This document shows positions 12,317-31,407 of a stretch of DNA of 64,000 nucleotides, piece after piece. The notes below the pieces were generated by a model that was not told the DNA's origin, searched no databases, and worked only from the letters and a program-made list of their open reading frames with translations. Made by a program: the position numbers and the translations under genes. The stretch's first letter is position 1. The number at the start of each line of letters is the position of its first letter. The stretch lies in assembly GCF_010499455.1 (NCBI RefSeq), contig NZ_JAAGOH010000008.1, positions 1 through 64,000 of the forward strand, written 5' to 3'. Source of the stretch: Ideonella livida (GTDB lineage Bacteria > Pseudomonadota > Gammaproteobacteria > Burkholderiales > Burkholderiaceae_C).

Positions 12317-13489
<1,173 letters not shown>

Positions 13490-13509
13490 GGGAGGTCTCC
13501 GGGGTGAAT

Positions 13510-14688: not shown

Positions 14689-14702
14689 GGTGGGCGGCCG
14701 GT

Positions 14703-16835
14703 TCAAGAAGGCGTGTAGGCGGTGAGCGGGGCGCCGGATTCGGCCAGTTGCACCAGCAGGGGCGCAGGCGTCCAGAAGGCGGTGGCGTTTTGGTAGGCCG
14801 GGCCGCGGGCATGGCGGCGCATGGCTTGCAGCACGCCGGGCAGGCCCAGGCGTTCGGCTTGCCACATGGGCCCACCGCGCCAGCGGGCAAAGCCGTAGCC
14901 GTGCAGGTAGACCACGTCGATGTCGGCGCCCCGGCGGGCGATGCCTTCGGCCAGCAGCTTGGCGCCTTCGTTGACCAGGGCCAGCAGCAGGCGCTCGACG
15001 ATCTCGTCGTCAGCGATGGCGCGGCGCGTCAGGCCCAGGCGGGTGGATTCGGCCTCGATGAGTTGCTGCACCTCGGCGCTGGGGCGTGGGCGCTTCTCGC
15101 CGGGCACATGGTCGTACCAGCCCTTGCCGTTCTTCTGGCCCAGGCGGCCGGCTTCAAACACCAGGTCGGCGGTGCGCGAGAAGGTGAGATCCGGGTGCTC
15201 GGCTTGGCGGCGGCGGCGGATGAAGGCGCCCACGTCGTGCCCGGCCAAGTCGCTCATGCGGAAGGGGCCCATGGCCATGCCCCAGCGCTCCATGGCGCCG
15301 TCCACCTGGGCGGGGGTGGCGCCTTCGTCCAGCAAGAAGCCGGCTTGGCGCAGGTAGGGCTCCAGCATGCGGTTGCCGATGAAGCCGTCGCACACCCGCG
15401 AGACCACGCCCACCTTGCCGATGCGCTTGGCCAGGGCCAGGGCGGTGGCCAGGGCGTCGGGCGCGGTGTGCTGGCATTCGATGATTTCCAGCAGCGGCAT
15501 CAGCTGCGCCGGGCTGAAGAAGTGCAGGCCCAGCACGTCTTGCGGGCGCTGGGTGAAGGCGGCCACGCGGTTCAGGTCCAGCGTGGAGGTGTTGCTGGCC
15601 AGCAGGGCGCCGGGCTTGGCCACGGCGTCCAGGCGGCGGAAGACGGCCTCTTTGACGGCCCAGTCCTCGAACACGGCTTCAATGAGGAGGTCGGCGTCGG
15701 CCAGGTCGGCATCGGCGGTGGTGCCGTGCAGACGGGCGAGGTGGGCAGCGGCCTGCTCGGGCTTGAGGCGGCCCTTGGCCACGGCGCCGTCAAAGTGGGC
15801 GCGGATGTTGGCCAGGCCACGCGCCAGCGCCTCGGGGGTTTGCTCCAGCACGGTCACGCTCAGGCCGGCCTGCAGCAGGCAGATGGCAATGCCGCAGCCC
15901 ATGGTGCCGGCGCCCACCACGGCGGTGCGTTCCACGGGGCGGGTGGGGGTGGCCGGGTCCAGGCCGGGCAGCTTGGCCACGGCCTTTTCGGCAAAGAAGG
16001 CGTGGCGCAGGCCGGCGGAGGCTTCGCCATGCACCAGCTGCACAAAGGCCTCGGCTTCTTGCGCCAGGCCCTTGGCCAGAGGTTGGGTGACGGCGGCTTC
16101 CACCAGGTCGATCACCTTCAGGGCAGCGGCGTTGGCGGGGCGGCCTTGCGCAGCGCCGCGTGCGGCGGCAAAGAAGCCGGCGGCATTCGCCAGGGCCGGG
16201 CGGCGGGCGCCGGTGCGGGGCAGGGGCTGGCCGGCGGCCAGCGCGTCGGCCAGCTGGGCCGCCAGAGTGGTGGCGGCGGGCAGGGGGTCGCCCTCGGTCA
16301 CGGTGTTGAACAGGCCGCTTTCTGCCAGGGCCCGGGCGGGCTGGGTCTTGCCTTGCAGGATGAGGTTGAGCGCCAGATCTGCCGCCACCAGGCGCGGCAG
16401 GCGCTGGGTGCCGCCGGCGCCGGGCAGCAGGCCCAGGTGGATCTCGGGCAGGCCCACGGTGCAGGCGCCCTCGGCCACGCGGCCGTGGCAGGCCAGGGCC
16501 AGCTCCAGCCCGCCGCCCAGGGCCAGGCCTTGCAGCGCGGCCACCACGGGTTTGGCGAAGTGTTCCAGGCGGTTGCAGAGGTCGGGCGGCGTGGGCGCCC
16601 AGGTCATGGCGGGCTGGCCGAATTCACCAATTTCGCCGCCGCCGCAGAAGGCCTTGGCGTGGGCGCCGGTCAGCACCAGGGCGCGGATGGCGGGGTCGGC
16701 CGCGGCGGCGTCCAGCGCGTCGGCCAGGGCCACGCGCAGCGGCAGGCCCAGGGTGTTCAAGGGGGGGCTGTTCAGGCGCAGCACGGCCACGCCCTGGGCA
16801 TTGGGCGCGTCAAGCAGGACAAGGGTTTGAGGCAT
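14703..16835 (-). CDS. bifunctional enoyl-CoA hydratase / 3-hydroxyacyl-CoA dehydrogenase
   Basis: The 710-residue protein is a FadB/FadJ-type fusion. The N-terminal crotonase domain (about 1-200) has [13 protein letters not shown] and [19 protein letters not shown], with the catalytic glutamate position in [19 protein letters not shown]. The NAD domain begins near residue 305 with [20 protein letters not shown], followed by [32 protein letters not shown] and the HAD C-terminal repeats. It leads the operon facing an IclR regulator. An IclR-type box lies about 137 bp upstream. Expected partner steps are supplied by the downstream thiolase and acyl-CoA dehydrogenase. Confidence 0.93.
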
Positions 16836-17029: not shown

Positions 17030-17138
17030 TGGCCGTCCAACCTGGAAGTTGTCGCCGCCAACGGTATGCTTGGCAGGCACGGACCGGCGGCCGGACCGGC
17101 GGCCGGGCCGTGCGACGAGACCACACAGGAGATGTCCC

Positions 17139-17933
17139 ATGTCGGGCGTGATGGAGAGAACCCTGGCCCTGCTGGAGCGGCTGGCCGAAGACGTGCGCGG
17201 CGTGCCGCTGGCCACCCTGTCTGACGAGCTGGACATACCGCGCAGTGCCACGCACCGCTTGCTGGCCGACCTGGCGGCCCTGGGCTATGTTCGCCAGACC
17301 CGGGAGCGGGGCGACTATGTGCTCACCACCAAGTTGGTGTCGCTGGGGCTGAACTACCTCAAGCACTCCGGGGTGGTGGACCTGTGCCAGCCCATCCTGG
17401 ACCGGCTGGCGGAGACCGCCGGCGAGCTGGTGCGTCTGGGCGTGGTCGACGTGGACCACATCACCTGGGTGGCCCTGAGCCAGGGCGCGCGTGCCGGCCT
17501 GCGCTACGACCCGGACATGGGCCTGGACGTCAAGCTGTCCTGCACCTCCTCGGGCCACGCCTGGCTGGCCACGCTGGAAGAGGACGACGCCATCGCCCTG
17601 CTCACCCGGCAGGGCTTGGGCAAGCCGCCGGAATATGGTCCCAAGGCGCCAGCCACCATCGCGGCGGTGATGAAGGCCGTGGCCCAGGCCAGGCGCCAGG
17701 GCTGGGCGCTGACGCTGGAGACCTATGCCCCCGGGCTCTCCGCCCTGTCCACCCCCATCCGGCCGGCCGGCCGTGGCGCGGTGGGGGTGCTGGCCATCTC
17801 GGGCCCGACGGTGCGCCTGAGCGAGGAGCGCCTGCGCGCCCTGGTGCCTGAGCTGCTGGCCGCTGCAGCCGACATTGCCCACGTCAGCGCCGCCTCGCCG
17901 CTGTTTGACCGGGCCTACAACCGCGTGGGCTGA
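17139..17933 (+). CDS. IclR-family transcriptional regulator
   Basis: From ATG 17139, preceded by AGGAG, the product is 264 residues. The N-terminal winged helix (about 1-65) includes MERTLALLERLAEDVRGVPL and LDIPRSATHRLLADLAALGYV. The effector domain has GGVVDVDHITWVALSQ-like strands, SCTSSGHAWLATL, and AGRGAVGVLAISGP near the C-terminus. It is divergent from the FadB-like, thiolase and acyl-CoA dehydrogenase operon, with an IclR-type box between, so autoregulation and control of that operon are expected. A similar box in front of the 28-kb cluster suggests a wider regulon. The effector is probably an aromatic or acyl catabolite, but this is inferred from the family. Confidence 0.92.
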   Translation: MSGVMERTLALLERLAEDVRGVPLATLSDELDIPRSATHRLLADLAALGYVRQTRERGDYVLTTKLVSLGLNYLKHSGVVDLCQPILDRLAETAGELVRLGVVDVDHITWVALSQGARAGLRYDPDMGLDVKLSCTSSGHAWLATLEEDDAIALLTRQGLGKPPEYGPKAPATIAAVMKAVAQARRQGWALTLETYAPGLSALSTPIRPAGRGAVGVLAISGPTVRLSEERLRALVPELLAAAADIAHVSAASPLFDRAYNRVG

Positions 17934-18601: not shown

Positions 18602-18955
18602 GGCGTGAGGATAGGGGCAGGGCGTGGACAGGGCGTGGTCAGGGCACAGCGTGGGGCTCGCCGACCTTCTTGCCTGTATACGCCGCAGGGCGGCCGCCCA
18701 CGGCTCATGACGCCCGCACCAGCCGCATGAAACACCGCCTGGTACCCGGGCTGGGTACTGCGTGCCACAGGCGCAGCCAGGGCGCATCGCAAAGATTCGC
18801 CCCCCGGACAACCCGGGTGCAGGGGTGAGCCCGGTGGCGGCCGGCCGGGGGCTCTGCAAGACTGGCGCCGGCCCCCGGAGCCCGCCGCCGGGGAATGGAT
18901 CTTGCACGCCGCCGGCCCAGGCCACCGACGAGTGGCCCTTACCCACCCGGTCCCC
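18602..18955. other. 354-bp intergenic region before the araC-type gene
   Basis: No gene is supported here. It holds a perfect dyad GTACCC-N5-GGGTAC at 18742-18758, a plausible operator for one of the divergent genes. It also holds an 8-bp inverted repeat, CCGGGGGC (18843-18850) and GCCCCCGG (18869-18876), that could form a hairpin in the AraC transcript leader. Confidence 0.45.
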
Positions 18956-20014
18956 ATGTCGTCCACCTCTTGCCTTGCCGGCGCCGCCGTGGCGGCCGCG
19001 CCGCTGCCGCCCTGGTCGCCCCGCCAGGCCCATTGCCGTCGCCTGCAGGCCCAGGATGTGGACGAGCATGCCCAGGCCATCGGGTCCTGGGACCTGCGCT
19101 ACGACCAACTGGGCGCCGGGCGTTTCCAGGCTGGCTTTTTCGAGCTGCGGCTGCCCGGCCTGCAGGTGTTTGCCGAGCACACCCGCCAGGCGGTGCGCCA
19201 GCGCGGCAGCCTGGGCCAGGGCCGGCTGGGGGCGGCCTTCATGCGCCGTGGCCAGGGCGAGGGCAGCTGCAACGGCCAGGCTTTCGGCCATGGCGAGGTG
19301 CTGGCCTGGCATGACGCCGAGCTGGACCTGCGCACCCCCGATGGTTGCCAGCTGGCCGGGGTGGTGTTGGAGCCCGACCTGCTGCCGTCCCAGGGACTGG
19401 CCCTGCCCCGGCTCTCACAGCCCTTGAGCGGGCAGGCCGCGGCCGTGCGGCGCCTGCACCGCCTGGTGCTCGACAGCCTGGTGTTGGCGCGCCGCCTCAG
19501 CCACCGGGCCGACGTCCCGGGGGGGGCGGTTGGCCGGGCCGCCCAGTGGGCTGACGCCCTGGCGGTGGCGCAGTGGCGCGACGACCTGGTGGACGCCTGC
19601 GTGGCCGCGGTGCACCGTGCGCCCACGGTGGGCGACCCGCTGCGGGCGCAGCGCCGCGCCGCCCTGGTGGAGCGGGCCTGCGCGCGCATGCTGGCGCAGG
19701 TGGAGCAGCAGGAGAGCATCTCCCAGGTGGCCCTGTGCCAGGCGCTGGGCACCAGCGTGCGCAACCTGGCCTATGCCTTCCAGACCGTGCTGGGCCTGTC
19801 CCCGCTGGCCTGGCTGCGTGTGGTGCGCCTGGGCGAGGCGCGCCGCACCCTGCGGCGCATGGCCGCCGGGCAGGAGGCGCCGCAGAGCATCTACGCCGTG
19901 GCCACCCGCCACGGCTTCTGGCATCTGGGGCGCTTTGCGGTGGAGTACCGCCAGCAGTTCGGTGAGCGGCCCTCCGACACCCTGGGCCGTCCGGCCCGCG
20001 AACGGATCGGCTGA
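18956..20014 (+). CDS. AraC-family regulator, likely of the amine dehydrogenase operon
   Basis: From ATG 18956 the product is 352 residues. The N-terminal 220 residues are a variable sensing domain, beginning about residue 35 with QAQDVDEHAQAIGSWDLRYD and containing FFELRLPGLQVF. The C-terminal 100 residues hold two helix-turn-helix motifs: ISQVALCQALGTSVRNLAYAFQTVLGLSPLAWL and YAVATRHGFWHLGRFAVEYRQQFGERPSD. The layout resembles EutR-like activators of amine catabolism. It is immediately upstream of, and co-directional with, the aau operon (187-bp gap containing direct repeats spaced 21 bp), which makes it the probable amine-responsive activator. Direct evidence for the effector is lacking. 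Confidence 0.88.
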   Translation: MSSTSCLAGAAVAAAPLPPWSPRQAHCRRLQAQDVDEHAQAIGSWDLRYDQLGAGRFQAGFFELRLPGLQVFAEHTRQAVRQRGSLGQGRLGAAFMRRGQGEGSCNGQAFGHGEVLAWHDAELDLRTPDGCQLAGVVLEPDLLPSQGLALPRLSQPLSGQAAAVRRLHRLVLDSLVLARRLSHRADVPGGAVGRAAQWADALAVAQWRDDLVDACVAAVHRAPTVGDPLRAQRRAALVERACARMLAQVEQQESISQVALCQALGTSVRNLAYAFQTVLGLSPLAWLRVVRLGEARRTLRRMAAGQEAPQSIYAVATRHGFWHLGRFAVEYRQQFGERPSDTLGRPARERIG

Positions 20015-20135: not shown

Positions 20136-20201
20136 GGCAGGCGGCTGTTTTTGAGAATTTCCGGCACGGGCCACCACGGTCCGCTCCCCGGAGATTCCCA
20201 C

Positions 20202-21398
20202 ATGCCCACCTCCCCAAGTTCACACCGTACGCCTGCGGCGCCGCCCCGCCGCCTGGCGCGCCTGCCGCAGGCCTTGGGTCTGCTGCTGGCCGCCGGCCTG
20301 GGCCTTGCCCAGGCGGAGCTGCCCGTCGAGCAGACCCGCATCGAGCCGCTGGCCCCGGCCACGCCTGAGCGGATCTACCTGACCGATCCGGTCATGCCGC
20401 ACCTGGTCGACGGCCGGGTGATCGTGATCGATGGCCAGAAGATGAAGCGCCTGGCCGTCATCGGCTCGGGCTTTTCGGCGCTCACCACCCTGTCGCCCGA
20501 CCGGCAGTGGCTGTATGTGGCCACCACCTACCACAGCCGCCTGCAGCGCGGCACCCGCACCGACGTGGTGGAGGTCTACCGCACCGACGACCTGACCTTC
20601 TCGCACGAGATCGAGATTCCGCCCAAGCATGCGCAGGGTCTGCCCATCAAGGCGCTGATGCAGACCAGCGCCGATGGCCGCTTCCTGCTCATCCAGAACG
20701 CCACGCCGGCCACCTCGGTGACGGTGGTGGACACCCAGGCGCGCAAGGTGACGGCCGAGATCGCCAACCCCGGCTGCTGGGGCGCCATCCCCTGGCCCCA
20801 AGCCAGCACGCGCTTTTCCACCGTCTGCGGTGACGGCACGCTGCAAACCTTTGACCTGAGCGCCACCGGCACCCCGGCCGGCAGCCAGCGCAGTGCCCGC
20901 TTCTTTGACCCCGACAAGGAGCCGCTGTTCATGCACTACAGCCTGCAGGGCAGCACCATGACGATGGTGGGCTTCTACGGCGCGGTGCAGCAGATCACCC
21001 TGGAGGGCGATGCCCCACGTTTTGCCACGCCCTGGAACTTCATCCGCGAGGCCGACCGCAAGCAAGGCTGGCGCCCCAGCGGCTTCCAGCTCTTTGAGGT
21101 GGTGGGCGGCCAGCTCATCGTGGGCATGCACCCGCAGGGCGCGGAGGGCACGCACAAAAACCCCGCCGAGCAGCTCTGGACGGTGGACCTGACCACCCGC
21201 ACCCGCGTGGCCCGCACGCCGGGCTTTGGCACCTTGTCCATGACCCAAACGCGTGAGGCCCAGCCCAAGCTGGTGCTGCTGAGCGCGCTGGACAACACGC
21301 TGCGCGTGCTGGACCCCGCCAAGCCCGCCACCATGGGCAAGCCGCTGCGCCACTCCGAGCCCATGGGCGAGACGCCCGTGTACCTGGAGACGCACTGA
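20202..21398 (+). CDS. aauB: aromatic amine dehydrogenase, heavy (alpha) subunit
   Basis: This is the beta-propeller subunit of a periplasmic TTQ enzyme that oxidises primary amines to aldehydes and ammonia. ATG 20202 follows a GGAG. The 398-residue product has a signal sequence ending near the AQA at residues 37-39, then the propeller start RIYLTDPVMPHLVDGRVIVI. Repeated blades include LTTLSPDRQWLYVATTYHSR, RGTRTDVVEVYRTDDLTFSHEIEIP, and the terminal LSALDNTLRVLDPAKP. Family length is about 390-430. The stop overlaps the aauE ATG. Downstream aauE, aauD and aauA complete the standard order of aau/mau clusters. The light-chain sequence makes an aromatic amine dehydrogenase more likely than methylamine dehydrogenase. 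Confidence 0.9.
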   Translation: MPTSPSSHRTPAAPPRRLARLPQALGLLLAAGLGLAQAELPVEQTRIEPLAPATPERIYLTDPVMPHLVDGRVIVIDGQKMKRLAVIGSGFSALTTLSPDRQWLYVATTYHSRLQRGTRTDVVEVYRTDDLTFSHEIEIPPKHAQGLPIKALMQTSADGRFLLIQNATPATSVTVVDTQARKVTAEIANPGCWGAIPWPQASTRFSTVCGDGTLQTFDLSATGTPAGSQRSARFFDPDKEPLFMHYSLQGSTMTMVGFYGAVQQITLEGDAPRFATPWNFIREADRKQGWRPSGFQLFEVVGGQLIVGMHPQGAEGTHKNPAEQLWTVDLTTRTRVARTPGFGTLSMTQTREAQPKLVLLSALDNTLRVLDPAKPATMGKPLRHSEPMGETPVYLETH

Positions 21399-21952
21399 TG
21401 GCCGCCGAGCTCATCACCCTCGACCCCGTGCTCGGCCACGCCGCCGCCGCCAGCGTGGGCGCGGTGCTGCTGACCGGGGCGTGGGCCAAGTTGAAGGATG
21501 TGGCGCTGTTCCGCGCCGCGCTCGACAACTACCGCCTGCTGCCCGATGCCGCCCTGGCCCCCGCCGCGCTGGCGCTGCCGCTGCTGGAGGCCGCCGCCGG
21601 CGCCCTGCTGCTGCCGCTGTCCACCCGGGCGTTGGGCGCCGTGCTGGCCCTGGCCCTGCTGGCCCTGGTGACCGCGGCCGTGGCCCTGCGCCTGGCCCGT
21701 GGCGCCGGCCGCATGGACTGCGGCTGCGGCGGCAGCACCGAGGTGCCGCTCTCGCGCGGCCTGCTGGCCCGCAACGTGGTGCTCATGGCCGTCACCGCCC
21801 TGGCCGCGCTGCCCGCCGGCGACCGGCCCACCGTGTGGCTGGATGCCGTGGCCGCCCTGCTCACCACCCTGTTTGCCCTGGGCCTGTACCACGCCGCCAA
21901 CCTGTGGCTGGCCCATCAACCCAAGCTTCTTGAACTGAGGAACGCCCCATGA
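21398..21952 (+). CDS. aauE: amine dehydrogenase maturation membrane protein (MauE-like)
   Basis: MauE and AauE are inner-membrane proteins needed, with MauD, for disulfide formation and stability of the light chain; they are related to DoxX/VKOR-like redox proteins. The 184-residue product has four hydrophobic segments (about 12-30, 52-70, 78-98, 125-160). A MDCGCGG motif near residue 107, containing the presumed redox cysteine pair, lies between the third and fourth. It overlaps aauB by 1 bp and aauD by 4 bp, so the operon is translationally coupled. Confidence 0.88.
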   Translation: MAAELITLDPVLGHAAAASVGAVLLTGAWAKLKDVALFRAALDNYRLLPDAALAPAALALPLLEAAAGALLLPLSTRALGAVLALALLALVTAAVALRLARGAGRMDCGCGGSTEVPLSRGLLARNVVLMAVTALAALPAGDRPTVWLDAVAALLTTLFALGLYHAANLWLAHQPKLLELRNAP

Positions 21953-22587
21953 CCGATGCCCTCGTCGTCTCCAACATCGTGCTCTGGGGGGCCGTGCTGG
22001 CCCTGCTGGTGGCGGTGATCGCCCTGTCCCGCCAAATCGGCATCCTGTATGAGCGCGTGGCCCCCATGGGCGCGCTGATGATGGACACCGGCCCCAAGGT
22101 GGGCGAAGCCGCCCCCGTGTTCGACCTGCCCAGCCTGGGCGGCGGTCACGTCACCGTGGGTGGCCCGGCCGCCCGCAGCACGCTGCTGTTCTTCCTCTCG
22201 CCCACCTGCCCGGTGTGCAAGAAGCTGCTGCCGGTGCTGCAGTCGATCCATGCGGCCGAGCGCCAGACGCTCAACCTGGTGTTCGCCTCCGACGGCGAGA
22301 CGCCCGAGCACGCCGAGTTCCGCCAGCGTGCCGGCCTGGGCGCCTTCCCCTACGTGCTGTCGGCCGAGCTGGGCATGACCTGGCGCATCAGCAAGCTGCC
22401 CTATGCGGTGCTCATCGACGAGCGCGGCATTGTGCGTGGCAAGGGCCTGGTGAACAGCCGCGAGCAGATCGACAGCCTCTTTGCCGCCCGCGACATGGGC
22501 CTGACCTCGGTGCAGGAGTACATGGACCGCAAGATCGCCGCCCACGCCGGGCATGACCACGCATTCGCTCACAAGGAGGCCGCATGA
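21949..22587 (+). CDS. aauD: amine dehydrogenase maturation thioredoxin-like protein (MauD-like)
   Basis: The 212-residue protein has an N-terminal membrane anchor (about residues 5-27) and a periplasmic thioredoxin-like domain with the active site SPTCPVCKK (Cys87 and Cys90) and cis-proline region ISKLPYAVLIDERG. MauD-type proteins isomerise or form the many disulfides of the light chain. A histidine-rich C-terminus, HAGHDHAFAH, is unusual and might bind metal. It overlaps both neighbours by 4 bp. Confidence 0.92.
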   Translation: MTDALVVSNIVLWGAVLALLVAVIALSRQIGILYERVAPMGALMMDTGPKVGEAAPVFDLPSLGGGHVTVGGPAARSTLLFFLSPTCPVCKKLLPVLQSIHAAERQTLNLVFASDGETPEHAEFRQRAGLGAFPYVLSAELGMTWRISKLPYAVLIDERGIVRGKGLVNSREQIDSLFAARDMGLTSVQEYMDRKIAAHAGHDHAFAHKEAA

Positions 22588-23132
22588 ACGCGCTCTGGAA
22601 CTGGCTGGACCGCGCCGCTGAGCGCCGTGCCCGCCGCCTGGCCCAAACCACCTCGCGCCGCAGCCTGCTGGTGGGCGTGGGCAAGACCCTGGTGGCCTCG
22701 GCCTTCACGCTGCCAGTGCTGCCGTTTGACCGCACCGGCCAGGCGCTGGCCGCCGGGGGCGGCCACGGCGCGGCCGCCAAGAAGAAGGGCGCCCCCACCG
22801 ACACCGACTGCGACTACTGGCGCTACTGCTCGGTGGACGGTTTTCTGTGTTCCTGCTGCGGCGGCTCGGCCACCAGCTGCCCGCCGGGCAGCACGGCGTC
22901 CAAGGTGGCCTGGGTGGGCACCTGCCTGAACCCGGCCGACGGCAAGAACTACCTGGTCAGCTACACCGACTGCTGCGGCCGCACACCCTGCGGCTCCTGC
23001 TTCTGCAACACCAACCACGGCGACCGGCCGGGCTACCGCCTGGGTGTGCACAACGACGTGAACTGGTGCATGGCCAACGACAGCTCGGTGTACCACTGCA
23101 CCGTGTCCGTCATCGTCGGGGTGGCCGACTGA
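22584..23132 (+). CDS. aauA: aromatic amine dehydrogenase, light (beta) subunit, TTQ-bearing
   Basis: The 182-residue precursor has a twin-arginine signal (TSRRSLLVGVGKTL, residues 23-36), as expected for this folded, cofactor-bearing subunit. The mature part has 14 cysteines, beginning with CDYWRYCSVDGFLCSCCGG. The two tryptophans that become tryptophan tryptophylquinone are Trp110 (VAWVGTC) and Trp161 (HNDVNWCMAN). Their 51-residue spacing equals that of Trp57 and Trp108 in methylamine dehydrogenase. SCCGG, CPPGST and HNDVNWCMAN match aromatic amine dehydrogenase better than methylamine dehydrogenase. The N-terminal linker before CDYW is short. Gene order BEDA and coupling to the two following cytochrome genes support function. 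Confidence 0.95.
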   Translation: MNALWNWLDRAAERRARRLAQTTSRRSLLVGVGKTLVASAFTLPVLPFDRTGQALAAGGGHGAAAKKKGAPTDTDCDYWRYCSVDGFLCSCCGGSATSCPPGSTASKVAWVGTCLNPADGKNYLVSYTDCCGRTPCGSCFCNTNHGDRPGYRLGVHNDVNWCMANDSSVYHCTVSVIVGVAD

Positions 23133-23653
23133 TGGGCGCCCGGTCACGCTTGGGTCCGCGCCGCTGGCGCGGTCTCTCGGCTGGGCTGGGCCTGGCCGCC
23201 CTGTGCGCCGGCGGGGGGGTGCCCGCCGCCGCCCAGCCCGCCCTGGTGCCGGCCTCCCCCCAAGCGTTGGCGCGGGGAGCCGAGGTGTTTGGCGGCGTCT
23301 GCTTGGCCTGCCACGGCGCCCAGGGGCAGGGCACCGCCGGCCTGGCCCCGGCGTTGGCCGGGCCCCTGGCGCCGGCCTTGGCCAGTGCGGAAGGCCGAGG
23401 CTACGTGCTGCGCGTGCTGCTGCACGGCCTGAGCGGGCGCATCGTCTCGCAAGGCCAAACCTTCATGGGGGCCATGCCCGCACAAAGCAACTTCCATGAC
23501 GAAGACCTGGCCGCCGTGGGCGCCCACCTGGCGCGGCTCAATGGGCTGGAGGGGGCGCCGTTCACCGCCACCGAGGTGGCCACTGCGCGGGCAGAACGGC
23601 CCGCACCCACCCACAAGGCCCTGCGCGAGCTGCGCGCCAAGGTGATGCCATGA
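23132..23653 (+). CDS. periplasmic monohaem cytochrome c
   Basis: The 173-residue product has a signal peptide (hydrophobic about 13-34, ending near AAAQ) and one haem-binding motif CLACH at residues 57-61. Possible distal methionines are in FMGAMP near residues 112-115. It resembles the cytochrome c class I/c551-552 type. Its ATG overlaps the aauA stop (TGATG) and its end overlaps the next cytochrome by 4 bp. It is a strong candidate for electron acceptor from the TTQ enzyme, taking the place of the azurin or amicyanin gene found with some other amine dehydrogenases. A role in TTQ biogenesis is also conceivable because no mauG-type dihaem gene is in the window. Confidence 0.9.
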   Translation: MGARSRLGPRRWRGLSAGLGLAALCAGGGVPAAAQPALVPASPQALARGAEVFGGVCLACHGAQGQGTAGLAPALAGPLAPALASAEGRGYVLRVLLHGLSGRIVSQGQTFMGAMPAQSNFHDEDLAAVGAHLARLNGLEGAPFTATEVATARAERPAPTHKALRELRAKVMP

Positions 23654-24228: not shown

Positions 24229-24870
24229 TCACCTCAACGGCGAAAACGGCAGCGGCACGCACAGCTGCGAGTGCATCTTGGCCAGTGAGGCCGGGCCGCC
24301 CTTGGGGGGCCAGATGCCTGTTTGCACGGCCTCGCCGCGGATGCGGGCGCGTTCGTCCAGGCTGGCGTAGGCCCAGATGTTGAGAAAGCGCGGTTGCTCG
24401 CCGCCGTCCAGCGCGGTGAAGGCGCCCACAAAGGGGGAGAGCGCTTCGCGGGCCGGAATGGCCTCTTCCCAGGCAGCAATGGTTTGCGCGAGCAGGCCGG
24501 TTTTCAGGCCGTAGGTGCGCAGCTCGTACCACTTGCCCAGCTCGGCCGGGGCCGGCTTGGGGAGGAAGGGGAAGCGTTTGTAGGCGCCGGACTTCAGGCT
24601 CACCAGCCACTCGGCGCAGCCCAGCGGGTTGGTGGCCAGCAGCAGGTGCTCACGCGCGGCGGCCAGGGCGTTGGCATCGGCAAACTCGCGCAGGATCTGC
24701 ACCTGGCTCAGGTCGCCAAAGTCAGAGGCCCAGGCGCCCACCAGGGTGCCGCCGGCGGCGGGCAGGTGGTCTTGCAAGGCGGCATAGACCTTGGCGTTGC
24801 TGAAGACGGCGATCTCCAGCGTGGTGAGTTCGTAGACGGTGGGGTCGGTGGACTGGACGGGGGTGGCCAT
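24229..24870 (-). CDS. NIPSNAP-family protein
   Basis: NIPSNAP proteins have ferredoxin-like alpha-beta barrel repeats, and their catalytic roles are mostly unknown; in bacteria they often sit in catabolic clusters. The 213-residue product shows two such repeats: YELTTLEIAVFSNAKVYAAL with LVGAWASDFGDLSQVQILRE, and YELRTYGLKTGLLAQTIAAW with LNIWAYASLDERARIR. It is the last gene of a four-gene minus-strand operon, 57 bp after the CoA-transferase. Confidence 0.85.
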   Translation of the reverse strand: MATPVQSTDPTVYELTTLEIAVFSNAKVYAALQDHLPAAGGTLVGAWASDFGDLSQVQILREFADANALAAAREHLLLATNPLGCAEWLVSLKSGAYKRFPFLPKPAPAELGKWYELRTYGLKTGLLAQTIAAWEEAIPAREALSPFVGAFTALDGGEQPRFLNIWAYASLDERARIRGEAVQTGIWPPKGGPASLAKMHSQLCVPLPFSPLR

Positions 24871-24927
24871 GCGGGCTCCGGGGGGGGCAAAGGAGGAATG
24901 GGCTCAACGGCGCTTTCAACGGCGCGT

Positions 24928-26502
24928 TCAACGACGGTTCGTCAGCGCGCCCAGCCCGTCGTCCTCACGCCGGTAGTGCGAGGCGGGCAGCACGCGCAGG
25001 TCAGGCGCGATGCGGGGGGCAAAGTCCATCTGGTCCAGGATGTCGCGCTGCAGGTCAATGCCCGGGGCGATTTCAAACAGCTCCAGCCCTTCGCGGGTCA
25101 GGCGGAAGCTGCCGCGTTCGGTCAGGTAGAGCGCGGTTTGGCCGCGCTCCAGGCTTTGCGGGCCGCTGAAGGTGACTTGGTCCACCTGCTGCACCAGCTT
25201 GTTCACGGCGCCTTGGCGCAGCACGCGCATCTGCCCGTCGCCGGTGGCCAGCTGCACGCCCTTGGCCGCGAAGGTGCCGCAGAACACCACGGTGCGGGCG
25301 TTTTGGGCGATGTCGATGAAGCCGCCGGGGCCCACCGTGAGCCCACCCAGGCGCGACACGTTCACGTTGCCGGCGGCGTCCAGCTCGCCAAACCCCAAGA
25401 AGGCCAGGTCCAGGCCGCCGCCGCCGTAAAAGTCGAACTGCGTGGGCGCGTCCAGCATGGCGCTGGCGTTGCGGGCGTAGCCAAAGAGCACGCCATCCAG
25501 CAGGCTGCCGCCGTAGGTGCCGTGCTCAATGGTTTGGTAGATGCGGTGCAGCTCGCCGCGGCGCACCACCAGCTTGGCCACGGCGTCGGGGATGCCCACG
25601 CCGTAGTTCACCACTGCGCCTTCAAACAGCTCGCAGGCGGCACGGCGTGCCACCGCTTGGCGCTCGTCAAACTCGCCCAGCTCGGGCAGCGCCTCGGCGG
25701 CGCGCTCGGCGCCCGTCAGCTCGCCGGAGAGGCTGGGGTCAAAGGGGATGTCATAGCTGGTGCGCTGCTCAGGGTCCACCACCACGGCGTCCACCCAGGC
25801 GGCGGGGATGCGCACCTCACGCGCCTTGAGCGCGCCGCGTGGCAGCTTTTCTTTGACCTGCACGATGACGGTGCCGCCGCTGGTGCGGGCGGCCAGCGCG
25901 ATGTGTGCGGCGTCCAGGTTGGCGGCCTCGTGCTCCAAGCTGATGTTGCCGTCTTCATCGGCGGCCGAGGCGCGCACCAGCGCCACGTCCACCGGGTAGG
26001 GCTTGTAGCGCAGGTACTCGCGGCCCTCCACCTGCACCACCTCGGCCAAGTCGTCTTGGGCCGCCTCGTTCATGCGGCCGCCGCCTTGGCGCGGGTCGCA
26101 CACGGTGCCCAGGCCCACATGGGTGAACAGGCCCGGCCGCCCGGCGCCAATCTCACGGAACAGTTGCGAGGACACACCGCCGGGCAGGATGTAGGCCTCG
26201 ATCTTGTTCTCGCGCGCCAGCTGCTGCATGCGTGGGCTCCACACCCAATGGCCGCCCACCACCTTGCGCACCAGGCCCTCGTGGGCAAAGCAGTTCATGC
26301 CGCGTGAGCCCTTGTCACCAATGCCCAGGGCGTGCACCACCGTCAGCGCCCGGGGCGCTTGCGTGGCCAGAAAGCGGCGCTCCACCGCTTGAAACAGCGT
26401 GGTGGCCTCCATCAGGCCACCACCGCCACCCATCAGGGCCACGGTGTCGCCATCGCGGATCAGGGCCGCGGCCTCATCGGCGGAGATGAATTTGTTCTTC
26501 AT
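24928..26502 (-). CDS. acyl-CoA:acetate/3-ketoacid CoA-transferase (fused alpha-beta, class I)
   Basis: The 524-residue product joins the two halves that are separate in AtoD/AtoA, as in propionate CoA-transferases. The N-terminal half has FISADEAAALIRDGDTVALMGGGGGL and INCFAHEGLV-like substrate segments. The C-terminal half has VNYGVGIPDAVAKLV and YQTIEHGTYGG with the probable catalytic glutamate. It moves CoA between acetyl-CoA or succinyl-CoA and a carboxylic acid. It lies 10 bp after an acyl-CoA dehydrogenase gene, consistent with activation of the acid that the dehydrogenase then oxidises. Confidence 0.9.
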   Translation of the reverse strand: MKNKFISADEAAALIRDGDTVALMGGGGGLMEATTLFQAVERRFLATQAPRALTVVHALGIGDKGSRGMNCFAHEGLVRKVVGGHWVWSPRMQQLARENKIEAYILPGGVSSQLFREIGAGRPGLFTHVGLGTVCDPRQGGGRMNEAAQDDLAEVVQVEGREYLRYKPYPVDVALVRASAADEDGNISLEHEAANLDAAHIALAARTSGGTVIVQVKEKLPRGALKAREVRIPAAWVDAVVVDPEQRTSYDIPFDPSLSGELTGAERAAEALPELGEFDERQAVARRAACELFEGAVVNYGVGIPDAVAKLVVRRGELHRIYQTIEHGTYGGSLLDGVLFGYARNASAMLDAPTQFDFYGGGGLDLAFLGFGELDAAGNVNVSRLGGLTVGPGGFIDIAQNARTVVFCGTFAAKGVQLATGDGQMRVLRQGAVNKLVQQVDQVTFSGPQSLERGQTALYLTERGSFRLTREGLELFEIAPGIDLQRDILDQMDFAPRIAPDLRVLPASHYRREDDGLGALTNRR

Positions 26503-26512
26503 GGCGCCGGCC

Positions 26513-27676
26513 TTATCGGTGGAGGTCGTGGAGCGCGGCGCCTTGTTTCATCACCGTCTTGGCAATCACGCCACGGTGTATCTCGGAGGTGCCGTCAAAG
26601 ATGCGGTAGATGCGGGCGTCGCGGTAGTAGCGCTCAATGGGCAGTTCCTTGCAGAAGCCCATGCCGCCAAACACCTGCACCGCGCGGTCCACCACGCGGC
26701 CCAGGGTTTCGGCGGCATGCACCTTGACCATGGCGATGTGGGTGCGGGCGTCCAAGCCGGCGTCGATCATCCAGGCGGCGTGCAGCACCATCCAGCGGGC
26801 GGCGTTCACCTCGATCACGCTGTCGGCCAGCATCTGCTGGACCATCTGAAAGTCACCAATGCGCTGGCCGAACTGCTGGCGGTCTTGCACGTAGGCGCTC
26901 ATCTTTTCCAGCACATGGCTGGCCTTGCCCACGGCGCGGGCGCCCACCTGGGCCAGGCGCACCACGTTCAGCGCACCCATGGCCAGCTTGAAGCCCTGGC
27001 CGCGCTGGCCCAGCAGGGTCAGGGGCTCCAGCACCACGTGGTCAAAAAACAGCTCCACATGGGGCGTGCCGCGCAGGCCCATCATCTTTTGGTCTTTGCC
27101 CACGGTGAAACCGGGCAGGCCCTTGTCCACCATGAACATGCTGATTTCTCTCTCCCCCGTCTTGGCCGACACGAGGAAGAAGTCGCTCCACTCGCCGTCG
27201 CTGATGAAGTGCTTGCTGCCGTTGAGCACCCAGCGGCCGTCTTCACGTTGTGTGGCGCGGGTTTTGATGCCCTGGGCGTCTGAGCCGGCGCCGGGTTCGG
27301 TGATGGCAATGGCGCAGGTGCGTTGGCCCTGCACGGTGGGCGTCAGCCAGCGGGCGATCTGCTCGCCCTGGCATTCCAGCAGCGGCTCATAGACGTTGCC
27401 AAAGGCGCGGCGGATCAGGATGTCGGTGGTGTGGCCGAACTGCTCTTCGCACAGCATGCGGTCCACCGCCGAGAGCCCGCCGCCGCCCAGCGCCTCAGGG
27501 ATGTTCAGCGCGTACAGGCCCAGGGCCTTGGCCTTCTCGTGCACCGCCAGCGCGGTGTCACGCGGCAGCTCGCCACGGTCTTCCACCGCGTCTTCCAAGG
27601 GCTGCAGTTCTTCGCGGATGAAGCGGCGCACGGTGTCAAGCAGCATCTTCTGCTCGTCGGAAAGGGCGAAATCCAT
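26513..27676 (-). CDS. acyl-CoA dehydrogenase
   Basis: From ATG 27676 the 387-residue product has the N-terminal MDFALSDEQKMLLDTVRRFI, AIAITEPGAGSDAQGIKTRA, WVLNGSKHFISDG, and the C-terminal VFGGMGFCKELPIERYYRDA with YRIFDGTSEIHRGVI. It is a second, clearly different paralogue of the enzyme at 12.3 kb. In some family members acting on ring acyl-CoAs the catalytic base has shifted; that cannot be settled here. It is flanked by the CoA-transferase and the AroE-like gene in the same operon. Confidence 0.92.
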   Translation of the reverse strand: MDFALSDEQKMLLDTVRRFIREELQPLEDAVEDRGELPRDTALAVHEKAKALGLYALNIPEALGGGGLSAVDRMLCEEQFGHTTDILIRRAFGNVYEPLLECQGEQIARWLTPTVQGQRTCAIAITEPGAGSDAQGIKTRATQREDGRWVLNGSKHFISDGEWSDFFLVSAKTGEREISMFMVDKGLPGFTVGKDQKMMGLRGTPHVELFFDHVVLEPLTLLGQRGQGFKLAMGALNVVRLAQVGARAVGKASHVLEKMSAYVQDRQQFGQRIGDFQMVQQMLADSVIEVNAARWMVLHAAWMIDAGLDARTHIAMVKVHAAETLGRVVDRAVQVFGGMGFCKELPIERYYRDARIYRIFDGTSEIHRGVIAKTVMKQGAALHDLHR

Positions 27677-27720
27677 GGCGGTGGGGGTCTGTGGAAGGGG
27701 AGGGGAAAAAGGGGGCGGGT

Positions 27721-28527
27721 TCAGGCCAGGTAGAAATCCACCAGCCGGTCGCACACGGCGGCAAACATGCCGGCGCCGGTCATGGTGGACAGGCCCTGGG
27801 CGCGGGCGGCCTCAATCAGCGGCGGCACGGCGGGTTGGGTGACCACGCAGCCGACAAAGGTGCCGGGCGCCAGGCGGCTGGCGTCCAGCGGCAGCGGGTC
27901 GGTGGGCTGCATGCCCATGGGGGTGGCGTTGATCACCAGGTCAAAGCCGCTGGGGTCGGCGCTGCCCACCTCCGGCGGCACCGGGTGGCCCACCTGCGGG
28001 CCGTAGGCGCGCAGCTTGGTGGCCAGGGCCTCGCGGCGGGTGGTGTCGGCCTCTTGCAGGGCCAGGCGGGCCACGCCGGCGTCCAGCAGGGCGTGGGCGA
28101 TGGCGGAGCCGGCGCCGCCGGCACCCACCAGCAGGGCGCATTTGCCGCGCGGCTCGCAGCCGGCGGCGCGCAGGCCGGCCACATAACCTTCACCGTCGCA
28201 CATGTCACCCAGCCAGCCGCCCGTGGCCGAGCGGCGGATGGCGTTGGCCGCGCCAATGGAGCGGGCGCGGGGCGTGGCCTCATCGCACAGGGCCAGGGCG
28301 TCAAACTTGTGCGGCACGGTGACGATGACACCGTCCACATTGGGCATGCGGCGCACGGCGTCCATCCACAAGGGCAGATCGGCCGGGTGCACGTGGGCCG
28401 GCACGACGATGGCGTCCGCCCCGCGTTCACGCAGCAGGCGGGTCACACCGGCGGGGGATTTGACCTGGGCGATGGGGTCGCCCACGATGAAGATCACGCG
28501 GGTGGCACCGCTGTAGCTGTCGAGCAC
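27721..28527 (-). CDS. divergent shikimate dehydrogenase paralogue
   Basis: I choose GTG 28527 (GGAG 8 nt upstream), giving 268 residues; the open frame reaches 28632 but runs through the IclR-type box. The AroE fold is clear: IVGDPIAQVKSPAGVTRLL, the catalytic lysine in VIVTVPHKFDALALCD, GAGGAGSAIAHALLDAG and NATPMGMQ. The usual NTDG substrate motif is replaced by MCDGEG, keeping the aspartate but changing the environment. Together with its location in an acyl-CoA operon, this suggests a non-shikimate hydroxy or oxo cyclic acid as substrate. It shares the divergent promoter with the FAD dehydrogenase. Confidence 0.82.
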   Translation of the reverse strand: MLDSYSGATRVIFIVGDPIAQVKSPAGVTRLLRERGADAIVVPAHVHPADLPLWMDAVRRMPNVDGVIVTVPHKFDALALCDEATPRARSIGAANAIRRSATGGWLGDMCDGEGYVAGLRAAGCEPRGKCALLVGAGGAGSAIAHALLDAGVARLALQEADTTRREALATKLRAYGPQVGHPVPPEVGSADPSGFDLVINATPMGMQPTDPLPLDASRLAPGTFVGCVVTQPAVPPLIEAARAQGLSTMTGAGMFAAVCDRLVDFYLA

Positions 28528-28573
28528 GGGACGAAGTCTCCGGTGAGGGAATGGCCGGCATTCTGACTCAAAA

Positions 28574-28588
28574 TGGAATAGAGTTCCA
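28574..28588. promoter_or_regulatory. IclR-type operator between aroE-like and FAD-dehydrogenase genes
   Basis: TGGAATAGAGTTCCA is a perfect TGGAA-N5-TTCCA dyad, the arrangement of IclR-family operators, in an AT-rich stretch of a 110-bp divergent gap. It resembles the dyad at 16972-16986 beside the window's only iclR gene. Confidence 0.65.
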
Positions 28589-28637
28589 CAAAACAAACTT
28601 GTTCCGGATTTTGCCGACACTCCGGACCTCACCGTCG

Positions 28638-30530
28638 ATGCCTACCCCGTCTGCGCCGTCCGCACGGCCTTCCCCAGCGCCCACCACAGCGTCCAAACCC
28701 TTGCCCACGGTGTCACCCACCGCCACCCCTGAGTCCTGCGACCTGCTGGTCATTGGCTCGGGCGCCGGGGCGCTCAGCACCGCTGTCACCGCTGCCCACC
28801 TGGGCTTGAAGGTGGTGGTGATAGAGAAGGCGCCCGTGCTGGGCGGCACCACCGCTTGGAGTGGCGGTTGGATGTGGATCCCGCGCAACCCGCTGGCGGT
28901 GGCCGCAGGCATCACGGAAGACGCCGATGGCCCGCGCCGCTACCTGCGCGCCATCTTGGGTGATGCGGTGATGAACCACCCCGCCCAGCGCCGCCGGCTG
29001 GAGGCCTTTTTGCACCACGGCCCGGCCATGGTGCAGTTCCACCTGAACCACACCGCGCTGCGCTTTGTGGATGGCAACAGCATCCCGGATTTCCACGGCC
29101 GGGCCGAGGGCGCCCGCACCGGCGGCCGCTCGGTGTGCGCCGCGCCCTTTGATGCCGCGCGCCTGGGGGCCGACTGGTCGCTGCTGCGCCCGCCGCTGCC
29201 GCTGGTGGCGTGGCTGGGCCTGAGCATTGGCGGCGATTTGCGCCACTTTTTGCGTGCCAACCGGGCGCTGGATTCGGCGTGGTACGTGGGCCGGCGGGTG
29301 CTGCGCCAGTGGTGGGACCGCGCGGTGCACGGCCAAGGCCGCCAGCGCATGGCGGGCAATGCGCTGGTGGGGGCGCTGCTGCTCTCGGCCCGCCAGGCGG
29401 GGGTGACGCTGCTGCCGCGCCATGCGGCGGTGGGCTTGTTGACTGAACCGCCGGGGCAGGCAGGGGAGGTGGGCGGCCGCGTCACCGGTGCCCGGGTGCT
29501 CACGCCGCAGGGCGAGCGCGTGCTGCACGCCCGCTGCGGCGTGGTGTGTGCGGCCGGGGGTTTCCCGCACGACTTGGCACGCAAGGCGGCCTTGTTTGCG
29601 CACGCGCCCACCGGGGCCGAGCACCACAGCGCCGCGCCCGCCACCAACACCGGCGATGGCCTGCGCCTGGCCGAGGCCGCCGGCGCCACGGTGGACACCG
29701 CGCTGGCCGATGCCGGCGCGTGGTGCCCCGTGTCGCTGGTGCCGCTGCCGGCCGCCCAAGGCGGCGGCGTGCAGGCCTTTCCGCATTTGGCTGAGCGCGG
29801 CAAGCCCGGCCTGATCGCCGTGGACGCCCAGGCCCAGCGCTTTGTGGACGAGGCGGGCAACTACCACAGCGTCATGCGCGCGCTGTTCGCCCGCCACCCC
29901 GGGGCGGCCGCCCCGCACGCCTGGCTGCTGTGTGACGCGCGTTTCATCCGCCGCTGGGGCCTGGGCGTGGTGCGGCCCTGGCCGTTTCCGCACCGCCGCT
30001 GGCTGGCCAATGGCTACTTGAAGCGCGGCCGCACCCTGGCGGAACTGGCCGCCGCCTGTGGCCTGGACCCTTTGGCCTTGGCCGCCACCGTGGCGCGCTA
30101 CAACGCCGGCGCCGAGCGAGGGGAAGACCCCGACTTTGGCCGCGGCAGCACGCCCTATGACCGCCTGCAGGGCGATGCCGAGCACCCTGGCCCCAACCCC
30201 TGTGTGGCGCCGCTGGTGCAGGCGCCGTTTTATGCCGTGCGCATCGTGCCCGGCAGCCTGGGCACCTTTGCCGGCTTGGCGGGCAATGAGCATGGCCAGG
30301 TGCTGCGCCCGGACGGCCAGCCGCTGCCCGGCCTGTACGCCGCCGGCAACGACGCCGCCAGCGTGATGCGCGGCCACTACCCCAGCGGCGGCATCACCTT
30401 GGGGCCGGCCATGACTTTTGGCTACCTCATCGCCCACCATGCGGCGGGCCAGCCGCTGCCCACGCCCGCGTGGCCCGATGCCGAGCCGGAGCCCGAAGCC
30501 ACGCCCAAGCCGGTGTGGCCGGCGGCTTGA
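28638..30530 (+). CDS. FAD-dependent dehydrogenase (3-ketosteroid-delta1-dehydrogenase / fumarate-reductase flavoprotein fold)
   Basis: The 630-residue product from ATG 28638 starts with a low-complexity Ala/Pro/Ser tail (about 1-32). The FAD loop follows: CDLLVIGSGAGALSTAVTAA HLGLKVVVIEKAP, then GGTTAWSGGWMWIPRNP. The C-terminal FAD segment has GLYAAGNDAASVMRGHYPSG and GITLGPAMTFGYL, typical of KstD-type enzymes. These remove hydrogens next to a carbonyl in a ring, or act on fumarate-like substrates. The neighbours favour dehydrogenation of an oxo-ring carboxylic acid, but the substrate is unproven. Transcribed divergently from the AroE-like operon. Confidence 0.85.
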   Translation: MPTPSAPSARPSPAPTTASKPLPTVSPTATPESCDLLVIGSGAGALSTAVTAAHLGLKVVVIEKAPVLGGTTAWSGGWMWIPRNPLAVAAGITEDADGPRRYLRAILGDAVMNHPAQRRRLEAFLHHGPAMVQFHLNHTALRFVDGNSIPDFHGRAEGARTGGRSVCAAPFDAARLGADWSLLRPPLPLVAWLGLSIGGDLRHFLRANRALDSAWYVGRRVLRQWWDRAVHGQGRQRMAGNALVGALLLSARQAGVTLLPRHAAVGLLTEPPGQAGEVGGRVTGARVLTPQGERVLHARCGVVCAAGGFPHDLARKAALFAHAPTGAEHHSAAPATNTGDGLRLAEAAGATVDTALADAGAWCPVSLVPLPAAQGGGVQAFPHLAERGKPGLIAVDAQAQRFVDEAGNYHSVMRALFARHPGAAAPHAWLLCDARFIRRWGLGVVRPWPFPHRRWLANGYLKRGRTLAELAAACGLDPLALAATVARYNAGAERGEDPDFGRGSTPYDRLQGDAEHPGPNPCVAPLVQAPFYAVRIVPGSLGTFAGLAGNEHGQVLRPDGQPLPGLYAAGNDAASVMRGHYPSGGITLGPAMTFGYLIAHHAAGQPLPTPAWPDAEPEPEATPKPVWPAA

Positions 30531-30591
30531 GCGCGAGCCCATCTGACCCGATCCGCACCGCCCCCATCGCCCTCCACCCCATACCCCGTCG

Positions 30592-31407
30592 ATGATCTCC
30601 ACCCCCCGCACCCTCTCCCTGGCCCAGCTCATCGCGCTGCCCTACAACCCACCGCAGATGGTGGCCCTGGCGGCCGCCACCGGCTGCACCGGCGTGGGCC
30701 TGCGCCTGCTGCCCACGGCGCCCGGTGGCCGCCACTACCCGCTGATGGATGCCCCGGCCTTGCTGGCGGAGACCCTGGCCGCGCTGGCCGACACCGGCGT
30801 GCAGGTGATGGACCTGGAGGTGGTGCGCCTGGGGGAGGCGTTTGACGTGACGGCGTTTCTGCCCCTGTTCGATGTGGGCCAGCGCCTGGGCGCCCGTCAC
30901 CTGCTGGTGGCGGGCGATGACCCCGATGAAGCCCGCCTGACCGCCGCCTTCGCCACACTGTGCGAAGCCGCCGCGCCCTACGGCCTGACGGCCGACCTGG
31001 AGTTCATGCCCTGGACGGCGGTGCCCAACGTGAGCACGGCGGCGCGCATCGTGGCCGCCGTGGCCCAGCCCAATGCCGGCCTGCTGGTGGACGCCTTGCA
31101 CTTTGCCCGCAGCGCGTCCACGCTGGCCGAGGTGGCCGCCCTGCCGCGTGCCTGGCTGCACTACGCCCAGGTGTGTGATGGCCGGGTGCCGCCGCCCACC
31201 ACCGTGGAAGGCCTGATTTTTGACGCCCGCTGCGAGCGCCTGCTGCCCGGCGAGGGCGGCATTGACCTGCCCGGCCTGCTGGCCGCGCTGCCGGCGGACC
31301 TGCCACTGAGCATCGAGGTGCCCAGTGAGCGCCGCGCCCCCGCCATGGGCTACACCGCCTGGGCCGCCGCCGCCAAGGCGGCCACGCTGCGCCTGCTGGG
31401 TGGCTGA
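30592..31407 (+). CDS. sugar-phosphate isomerase/epimerase-like TIM-barrel protein
   Basis: The 271-residue product belongs to the AP-endonuclease-2/xylose-isomerase-like TIM-barrel superfamily. It has an early LIALPYNPPQMVALAAATGC then TGVGLRL, LEVVRLGEA, DLEFMPWTAVPNVSTAARIV with a metal-binding Glu, LLVDALHFARSAST with Asp and His, and SIEVPSERR. The family includes isomerases, epimerases and 3-dehydroshikimate dehydratases of the AsbF type. The neighbouring AroE paralogue makes the last worth testing. It follows the FAD dehydrogenase by 61 bp on the same strand. Confidence 0.82.
   Translation: MISTPRTLSLAQLIALPYNPPQMVALAAATGCTGVGLRLLPTAPGGRHYPLMDAPALLAETLAALADTGVQVMDLEVVRLGEAFDVTAFLPLFDVGQRLGARHLLVAGDDPDEARLTAAFATLCEAAAPYGLTADLEFMPWTAVPNVSTAARIVAAVAQPNAGLLVDALHFARSASTLAEVAALPRAWLHYAQVCDGRVPPPTTVEGLIFDARCERLLPGEGGIDLPGLLAALPADLPLSIEVPSERRAPAMGYTAWAAAAKAATLRLLGG

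Follow-up and report, generated by a model that had tools for sequence, protein, structure and literature searches.

We describe a gene cluster of Ideonella livida (Burkholderiales), situated between positions 24229 and 31407 of a DNA stretch of 64,000 nucleotides (contig NZ_JAAGOH010000008.1, positions 1 to 64,000; called the window in the following), which apparently belongs to a conserved, jointly regulated bacterial gene set. We give about an even chance to the reading that this cluster, an IclR-type regulator encoded in the window and an unlinked second flavoprotein gene, FAD2, make up a catabolic regulon by which a hydroaromatic acid is aromatised, probably to protocatechuate. By hydroaromatic we mean here a carboxylic acid of cyclohexane or cyclohexene whose ring bears hydroxyls. 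The gene set, its synteny, the conserved residues, the shared operator-like sites and the co-occurrence across genomes were computed; the substrate, the product and every reaction are what we infer from them.

All six cluster genes that an earlier note on this DNA had named were found at the given places by profile search with Pfam and NCBIfam. The minus strand carries, closely spaced in the manner of an operon, an AroE-like dehydrogenase of the shikimate dehydrogenase family (27721-28527), an acyl-coenzyme A (CoA) dehydrogenase, ACAD2 (26513-27676), a FadX-like CoA-transferase (24928-26502; 362 bits, under the model cut-off of 750) and a NIPSNAP protein (24229-24870; Pfam PF07978, 99 bits). 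On the plus strand the KstD-like flavoprotein FAD1 (28638-30530; Pfam FAD_binding_2, 296 bits) is followed by a xylose-isomerase-like TIM barrel, a putative dehydratase or isomerase (30592-31407). From the alignment of orthologues a GTG near 28527 is proposed as start of the AroE-like gene (open reading frame 27721-28632), and an ATG near 28638 is probably the start of FAD1 (open from 28551). ACAD2, open from 27754, probably begins at 27676, where the conserved protein begins. With the proposed starts the promoter gap between the AroE-like gene and FAD1 measures about 110 bases. The stretch delimited by the earlier note misses the IclR gene (17049-17933, plus strand; Pfam IclR_C and HTH_IclR; true start perhaps about 17139), which we propose as the cognate regulator, and FAD2 (contig 41, 25071-26843; 63% identity). 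This second KstD-like enzyme lay beyond the view of the window, and the role of the regulator and the operator had likewise been missed.

That the cluster is not a chance neighborhood is argued by the co-occurrence of its genes in the best 80 of 451 relatives from a scan of named genomes (module loci). The core of this module consists of the AroE-like gene, FAD1, the NIPSNAP gene and the TIM barrel, often together with the acyl-CoA dehydrogenase and the CoA-transferase, and most loci hold FAD2 as well. Besides the AroE-like gene in all 80 loci we counted FAD2 in 68, IclR in 66, there sharing the locus of the AroE-like gene, FAD1 in 60, the TIM barrel in 55, NIPSNAP in 52, a GFO/MocA-type gene (GFO) in 29, and CoA-transferase and ACAD2 in 22 each; the flavoprotein counts are slightly generous, since matches of about 48% identity, possibly other family members, are included. 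A full-length stretch was available for 36 of the 80 loci, and here the AroE-like gene (36), TIM barrel (31), FAD1 (31), IclR (30), FAD2 (30) and NIPSNAP (28) are accompanied by GFO/MocA (17), CoA-transferase (16), ACAD2 (16) and SDR (10) genes. A frequent order is AroE-FAD2 divergent from IclR-FAD1-NIPSNAP-TIM, with ACAD2-CoA-transferase behind in some loci.

Among 200 genomes of the family, AroE-like orthologues occur in 22, the window's own genome counted, and in an enlarged sample of 399, which includes the first 200, in 37. The threshold (E 6.5e-79 or better; next match 2.6e-60) was placed once the gap was visible, and the same gap was seen in the enlarged sample. The module is patchy, because none of the five congeners among the 399 genomes has such an orthologue and a class-wide sample of 370 genomes (E 1e-60) gave a match in the window's own genome only. 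Module loci lie also on plasmids of Rhizobium sullae, Paraburkholderia largidicola, Burkholderia multivorans and Paracoccus alcaliphilus. A contig of a Planctomycetales metagenome-assembled genome (L066) holds an AroE-like relative at 62%, and on it the other module genes were not detected; its one operator match lies outside the promoter windows defined below.

The joint regulation is suggested by a common operator-like site at both the linked and the unlinked module genes. Orthologous promoters contain runs of TKGAAT and ATTCMA half-sites in a 9-base register, summarized here as the pattern TKGAAT-N3-ATTCMA. The window contains a single match, the candidate IclR-type operator TGGAATAGAGTTCCA at 28574-28588 (no strand assigned) between the divergent operons; exact 6-base palindrome arms are absent from this gap, and the site has one mismatched pair. 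The unlinked FAD2 has the site TGGAATAATATTCCA, 23 bases ahead of its proposed GTG start. A scan of 2,104,500 bases (40% of the Ideonella livida genome) gave exactly these two matches, both at module promoters, as compared to a mean of 1.0 match when the scanned sequence was shuffled three times. Taking 250 bases upstream of AroE, IclR, FAD1, GFO and FAD2 as promoter windows, the 80 loci yielded 113 matches in 68,224 bases as compared to 5 in the remaining 1,174,038 bases, and 61 of the 80 loci had one match or more within these windows. In the family sample 14 of 21 loci had a match, several of these being the same genomes as named loci. The IclR regulator of 17049-17933 would be the protein that binds the shared sites.

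The sites recur on plasmids, with one match in Rhizobium sullae, two in Paraburkholderia largidicola and three, upstream of FAD1, GFO and FAD2, in Burkholderia multivorans; the Paracoccus alcaliphilus plasmid has the module genes and no match. In one locus (L044) a match at 15554-15568 precedes, at a distance of 61 bases, a gene whose product resembles the binding proteins of tripartite tricarboxylate transporters; this gene may contribute uptake to the regulon. The transporters in the vicinity of the module are of varying kind: TRAP, branched-chain-type ABC and metabolite/H+ symporter types were found by profile, and the tripartite tricarboxylate type is annotated in one plasmid and assigned by resemblance elsewhere. 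All these are mostly carriers of organic acids.

A hint towards the chemistry arises from the flavoproteins. In KstD, as described in PMC5348764, Tyr487 and Gly491 polarise the 3-ketone, Tyr318 together with Tyr119 takes the proton, and the hydride passes to flavin adenine dinucleotide. Aligned to KstD, Y438, Y610 and G614 of FAD1 correspond to Tyr318, Tyr487 and Gly491, and F181 falls on Tyr119. Of the loci with a match, 60 for FAD1 and 68 for FAD2, 56 and 61 provided alignment rows that were well covered and had a usable frame; two FAD1 and three FAD2 rows below 55% identity were set apart, and the FAD1 of the window and the own FAD2 were added, leading to 55 and 59 sequences. The equivalents of Tyr318, Tyr487 and Gly491 are present in 55 of 55 FAD1 sequences each, and all 55 have Phe at the Tyr119 position. 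FAD2 retains the Tyr119 and Tyr318 equivalents in 59 of 59 and those of Tyr487 and Gly491 in 58 of 59 each, so that FAD1 and FAD2 differ consistently, Phe in place of Tyr, at the position of one of the two proton-taking tyrosines. As the catalytic residues of KstD are kept, FAD1 and FAD2 should desaturate next to a ring ketone.

Regarding family membership, the best family of FAD1 is NF004789/PRK06134 (741 bits, cut-off 747), while NF009477/PRK12843 was above its cut-off in five of five scanned FAD2 examples. The NCBIfam KstD models gave 439 (cut-off 789) and 407 (788) bits for FAD1 and 442 and 409 bits for a FAD2 example (L032); the model of ChcC2 gave 467 and 413 bits (cut-off 900) and that of ChcC1 304 and 301 bits (cut-off 1000). 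Being under all these cut-offs, FAD1 and FAD2 are placed in neither the KstD nor the ChcC family.

The AroE-like dehydrogenase stays below the cut-off of every shikimate dehydrogenase model listed (best 125.6 compared to 200.2 bits). AroE itself is characterized by the motifs HSKSP and NTD. The observation that the AroE NTDG is replaced by MCDGEG in this paralogue was correct, and it turned out to be a subfamily trait: of 19 aligned sequences 14 have MFDG, two MCDG, two HFDG and one HADG. K109, N130 and D146 are invariant in all 19; we take K109 and D146 to be the catalytic Lys and Asp of AroE, and N130 to be its Asn. The closest solved relative by sequence is 4k28 (E 4.1e-44), presumably RifI2 of Pseudomonas putida, a protein with passing mentions only in the open-licence literature. 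In a tree of AroE sequences the clade formed by the module copies excludes seven paralogue rows (from a Curvibacter island, contig 26 of the own genome and G105, and as second copies from L116 and L135); the tree has long branches, those of plasmid copies among them, and was used solely to place paralogues.

QuiC matched above 600 bits in 19 genomes, two of the matches being partial, and in 9 of these genomes more distant AroE paralogues (34-46% identity) lie no further than 5 kb from it, which ties the wider AroE-like group to hydroaromatic acids. Split QuiC-like gene pairs occur in seven distinct genomes, and a QuiC-like fusion gene lies near the module of the Paracoccus plasmid. Another relative, from Rhizobium, is located next to a QuiC-like gene; the 20 kb covered there contain no FAD genes, and there is no operator match. 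Curvibacter gracilis (G194/L149) unites within about 27 kb the module, a shikimate-transporter-like symporter, AroQ, two AroE paralogues, ACAD2-CoA-transferase, a full QuiC and other genes; its hydroaromatic-acid island (25-16227 of L149) includes a GFO-like gene. G194 was equated with the named record because their AroE rows and stretches are identical. The own genome has a second AroE-like gene (40%) on contig 26 (14608-15570 of L051), whose neighbors cluster with genes from the module loci, namely those for GFO, IclR and ABC transporters. No operator match was found at this locus, possibly another hydroaromatic one.

Ring-cleavage genes were counted in the first 200 family genomes and in a second set of 75 of the 199 further genomes, composed of the 15 new carriers and 60 of the others, of which every third was taken. 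LigA (PF07746) was present in all 22 module carriers of the first set compared to 104 of 178 other genomes, and in 15 of 15 compared to 27 of 60 in the second, adding up to 37 of 37 and 131 of 238. PcaG was absent from the carriers of both sets, 0 of 22 compared to 26 of 178 (p 0.085) and 0 of 15 compared to 8 of 60 (p 0.35), neither difference being significant alone. The control PaaA, counted in the first set only, showed no association (12 of 22 carriers, 113 of 178 others). QuiC occurred in 10 of 22 carriers and 9 of 178 others of the first set. Moreover, genes of protocatechuate 4,5-cleavage lie near the module in five loci (L042, L043, L080, L122 and L128). LigK, LigA and LigB of L042 were over the cut-off by profile, and the lig genes of the other four were named by high identity to these; L128, at a contig end, has LigB and LigC only.

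Taken together, a hypothetical sequence of reactions can be drawn. The AroE-like enzyme would oxidise a ring alcohol to the ketone, FAD2 and FAD1 would each abstract the alpha proton and the beta hydride next to this ketone, introducing two ring double bonds, and tautomerisation would yield a hydroxybenzoate, most likely protocatechuate, which could then enter 4,5-cleavage by LigAB. Since 3,4-dihydroxycyclohexanecarboxylate (C7H12O4) minus six hydrogens equals protocatechuate (C7H6O4), the redox sum fits one alcohol dehydrogenase and two desaturases. The TIM barrel might remove, shift or re-set an extra ring hydroxyl; E137, D167, Q193 and E242 are invariant in 28 of 28 sequences, and its fold matches are IolI, Lmo2234 and the TIM/HPPD fusion 5hmq. 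CoA-transferase and acyl-CoA dehydrogenase could admit saturated acids at the CoA level and desaturate acids without a ring oxygen near C1. The NIPSNAP model (predicted local distance difference test, pLDDT, 92.8) consists of two alpha/beta-barrel-type halves, and its ten best fold matches, at 10-13% identity, are ABM-type monooxygenases, anthrone-oxidase-like proteins, chlorite-dismutase and coproheme-decarboxylase types and a marine protein; the predicted structure bears a weak resemblance to the ABM and chlorite-dismutase types. For both the TIM barrel and NIPSNAP the fold searches gave matches at the family level only. In its narrower form our proposal, tentative and held at well short of an even chance, is an undescribed aerobic pathway with a patchy occurrence in Burkholderiales and on certain plasmids of alphaproteobacteria. 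In this pathway, controlled by a single IclR regulator, an AroE-type dehydrogenase would act with two specialised KstD-type desaturases, one of the Phe119 and one of the Tyr119 type, to oxidise saturated hydroaromatic acids, for example those of the dihydroshikimate type, to protocatechuate directly and without a dehydration step.

Several observations weigh against this interpretation. In 19 of the 80 module loci the tested windows contain no operator match, three of these loci having one elsewhere; 7 of the 21 family loci have no match, and the five lig-linked loci have none at their lig genes. The operator pattern, the orthology threshold and the promoter windows were all picked after part of the data had been seen. 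As the class-wide sample gave no further carrier, all association tests are confined to the family; there LigA is common and the genomes are related, so that Fisher p-values overstate the association, PF07746 may take in other extradiol enzymes, and the lig linkage may stem from few lineages. The QuiC association was not repeated in the second set (2 of 15 carriers, 3 of 60 others) and is not relied on. The own genome has no full-length QuiC, its single match spanning only positions 293-617 of the profile. Finally, the AroE-like protein reads QVKSP at the position of HSKSP, where AroE has a carboxylate-binding Ser, so its substrate may be bound differently.

Among the alternatives, a route like that of Chc should be considered first. 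The logic of Chc is one alcohol dehydrogenase and two desaturases. The module has genes for a putative alcohol dehydrogenase and two predicted KstD-like desaturases, and shared operator-like sites that may reflect a common control. The AroE-like enzyme, in place of the usual dehydrogenase, and FAD1 and FAD2 as desaturases could turn a sparsely hydroxylated alicyclic acid, e.g. 4-hydroxycyclohexanecarboxylate, into 4-hydroxybenzoate, and the ChcC2 scores of FAD1 and the FAD2 example speak for it. However, these scores are far under the ChcC cut-offs and about equal on the KstD models, and the linked genes, where seen, are of the quinate/shikimate and protocatechuate type, which renders this route unlikely in our view.

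The earlier note had joined the cluster to a beta-oxidation set at 12-17 kb and proposed that the ring is opened by thiolysis, i.e. a CoA-linked beta-oxidation of an alicyclic acid. The set (12317-16835, minus strand) consists of an acyl-CoA dehydrogenase (ACAD1), a thiolase (NF005494, over the cut-off) and a FadB/FadJ-like gene, and is divergent from the IclR gene. This adjacency to the regulator, the two CoA enzymes of the module and the separate operator match ahead of ACAD2-CoA-transferase in Curvibacter gracilis (L149:7110, about 11 kb from the module core) speak for such a connection. On the other hand, a comparison of 111 neighborhood stretches, several overlapping and reaching about 10 kb to each side, revealed no relative of FadB, thiolase or ACAD1 at or above 40, 50 and 45% identity over half the length, so that the join is not supported; no operator match lies near 12-17 kb, and CoA-transferase and ACAD2 occur in just 16 of the 36 full-length loci. 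We therefore rejected the link to this set, and the reading as a whole appears quite improbable. Nothing was found in favor of thiolytic opening, and protocatechuate 4,5-cleavage fits better. What stands of the earlier proposal is a ring-dehydrogenase-type flavoprotein acting with the AroE paralogue on an alicyclic, here hydroaromatic, acid, in agreement with the kept KstD residues and the hydroaromatic and protocatechuate genes near some relatives.

A cyclitol or sugar-acid pathway, in which GFO/MocA, a TIM-barrel epimerase and an AroE-like reductase act together and the flavoproteins introduce double bonds into a keto-sugar-like ring that does not become aromatic, would account for GFO/MocA in 17 of the 36 full-length loci and for the likeness of the TIM barrel to IolI, and 5-ketofructose reductase is among the solved AroE relatives. 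As none of the cyclitol routes known to us employs two KstD-type desaturases, and LigA is present in 37 of 37 module genomes, we think that this has a small chance of being correct. A role in breaking down a ring fragment of steroid or terpenoid origin, which the KstD-type family and residues would suggest, seems most improbable given that the AroE-like, QuiC and AroQ neighbors do not fit and that no other steroid gene was recognised among the annotated genes of the window and its neighbors, where no systematic search was made.

The remaining surroundings comprise a methylamine-dehydrogenase-like operon (heavy chain, MauE, thioredoxin-like protein, light chain, c-type cytochrome; 20151-23653, plus strand) between the IclR gene and the module, preceded by an AraC-type helix-turn-helix gene (18902-20014), and a protein with a zeta-toxin-like domain (11537-12286, plus strand; Pfam PF06414, 36 bits). 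On contig 41 (L056) an L-talarate/galactarate dehydratase (14945-16234, minus strand; NF047820, 673 bits, cut-off 500) lies close to FAD2. The same contig has two gene copies for a protein of 164 residues (5070-5564 and 13081-13575) that are identical in the first 120 residues, one copy being located just upstream of FAD2.

If the preferred reading of a regulon aromatising a hydroaromatic acid is true, it would explain the aerobic bacterial use of reduced plant-type ring acids, and the operator would mark the regulon. It would also provide a function for a class of AroE paralogues and for the two flavoprotein families, NF004789/PRK06134 and NF009477/PRK12843, which NCBIfam labels only "FAD-dependent oxidoreductase". 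The fixed Tyr/Phe difference could then serve as a ready system for studying bond choice in KstD-type desaturation.

Compared to known systems, the module shares the catabolism of an alicyclic acid with the anaerobic bad-ali pathway for cyclohexanecarboxylate, which converges on the benzoyl-CoA pathway (PMC9795900); the two are likened here by description. With KstD (7p18, 4c3x) FAD1 has in common the sequence family, the FAD-binding domain and the equivalents of Tyr318, Tyr487 and Gly491, but differs in the Phe at Tyr119, in scores under the NCBIfam KstD cut-offs and in neighbors of the AroE rather than the steroid type. The AroE-like protein shares the QVKSP motif with 4k28, its closest solved relative, although the similarity is moderate and, as compared by sequence, 4k28 has NVDG where the module has MCDG in the active-site motif. 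Quinate/shikimate catabolism leads to protocatechuate by quinate/shikimate dehydrogenase, AroQ and QuiC; an AroE-family dehydrogenase, a TIM barrel with a fold akin to the TIM/HPPD fusion 5hmq and some neighbors are common to both, while the two flavoprotein desaturases, the NIPSNAP protein and the CoA enzymes, and an own genome without a full-length QuiC, set the module apart. The earlier statement that no pathway with this exact gene set is described holds in so far as none was found in the open-licence literature, yet by analogy the logic of the module resembles that of quinate catabolism and of the Chc route. In the latter, the aromatisation of cyclohexanecarboxylate, two KstD-family flavoproteins (ChcC1 and ChcC2) and an alcohol dehydrogenase lead to a hydroxybenzoate, and corresponding activities are predicted here; in contrast to Chc, the module has an AroE-type dehydrogenase, flavoproteins scoring far under the ChcC cut-offs and, where downstream genes are linked, a few of the protocatechuate type.

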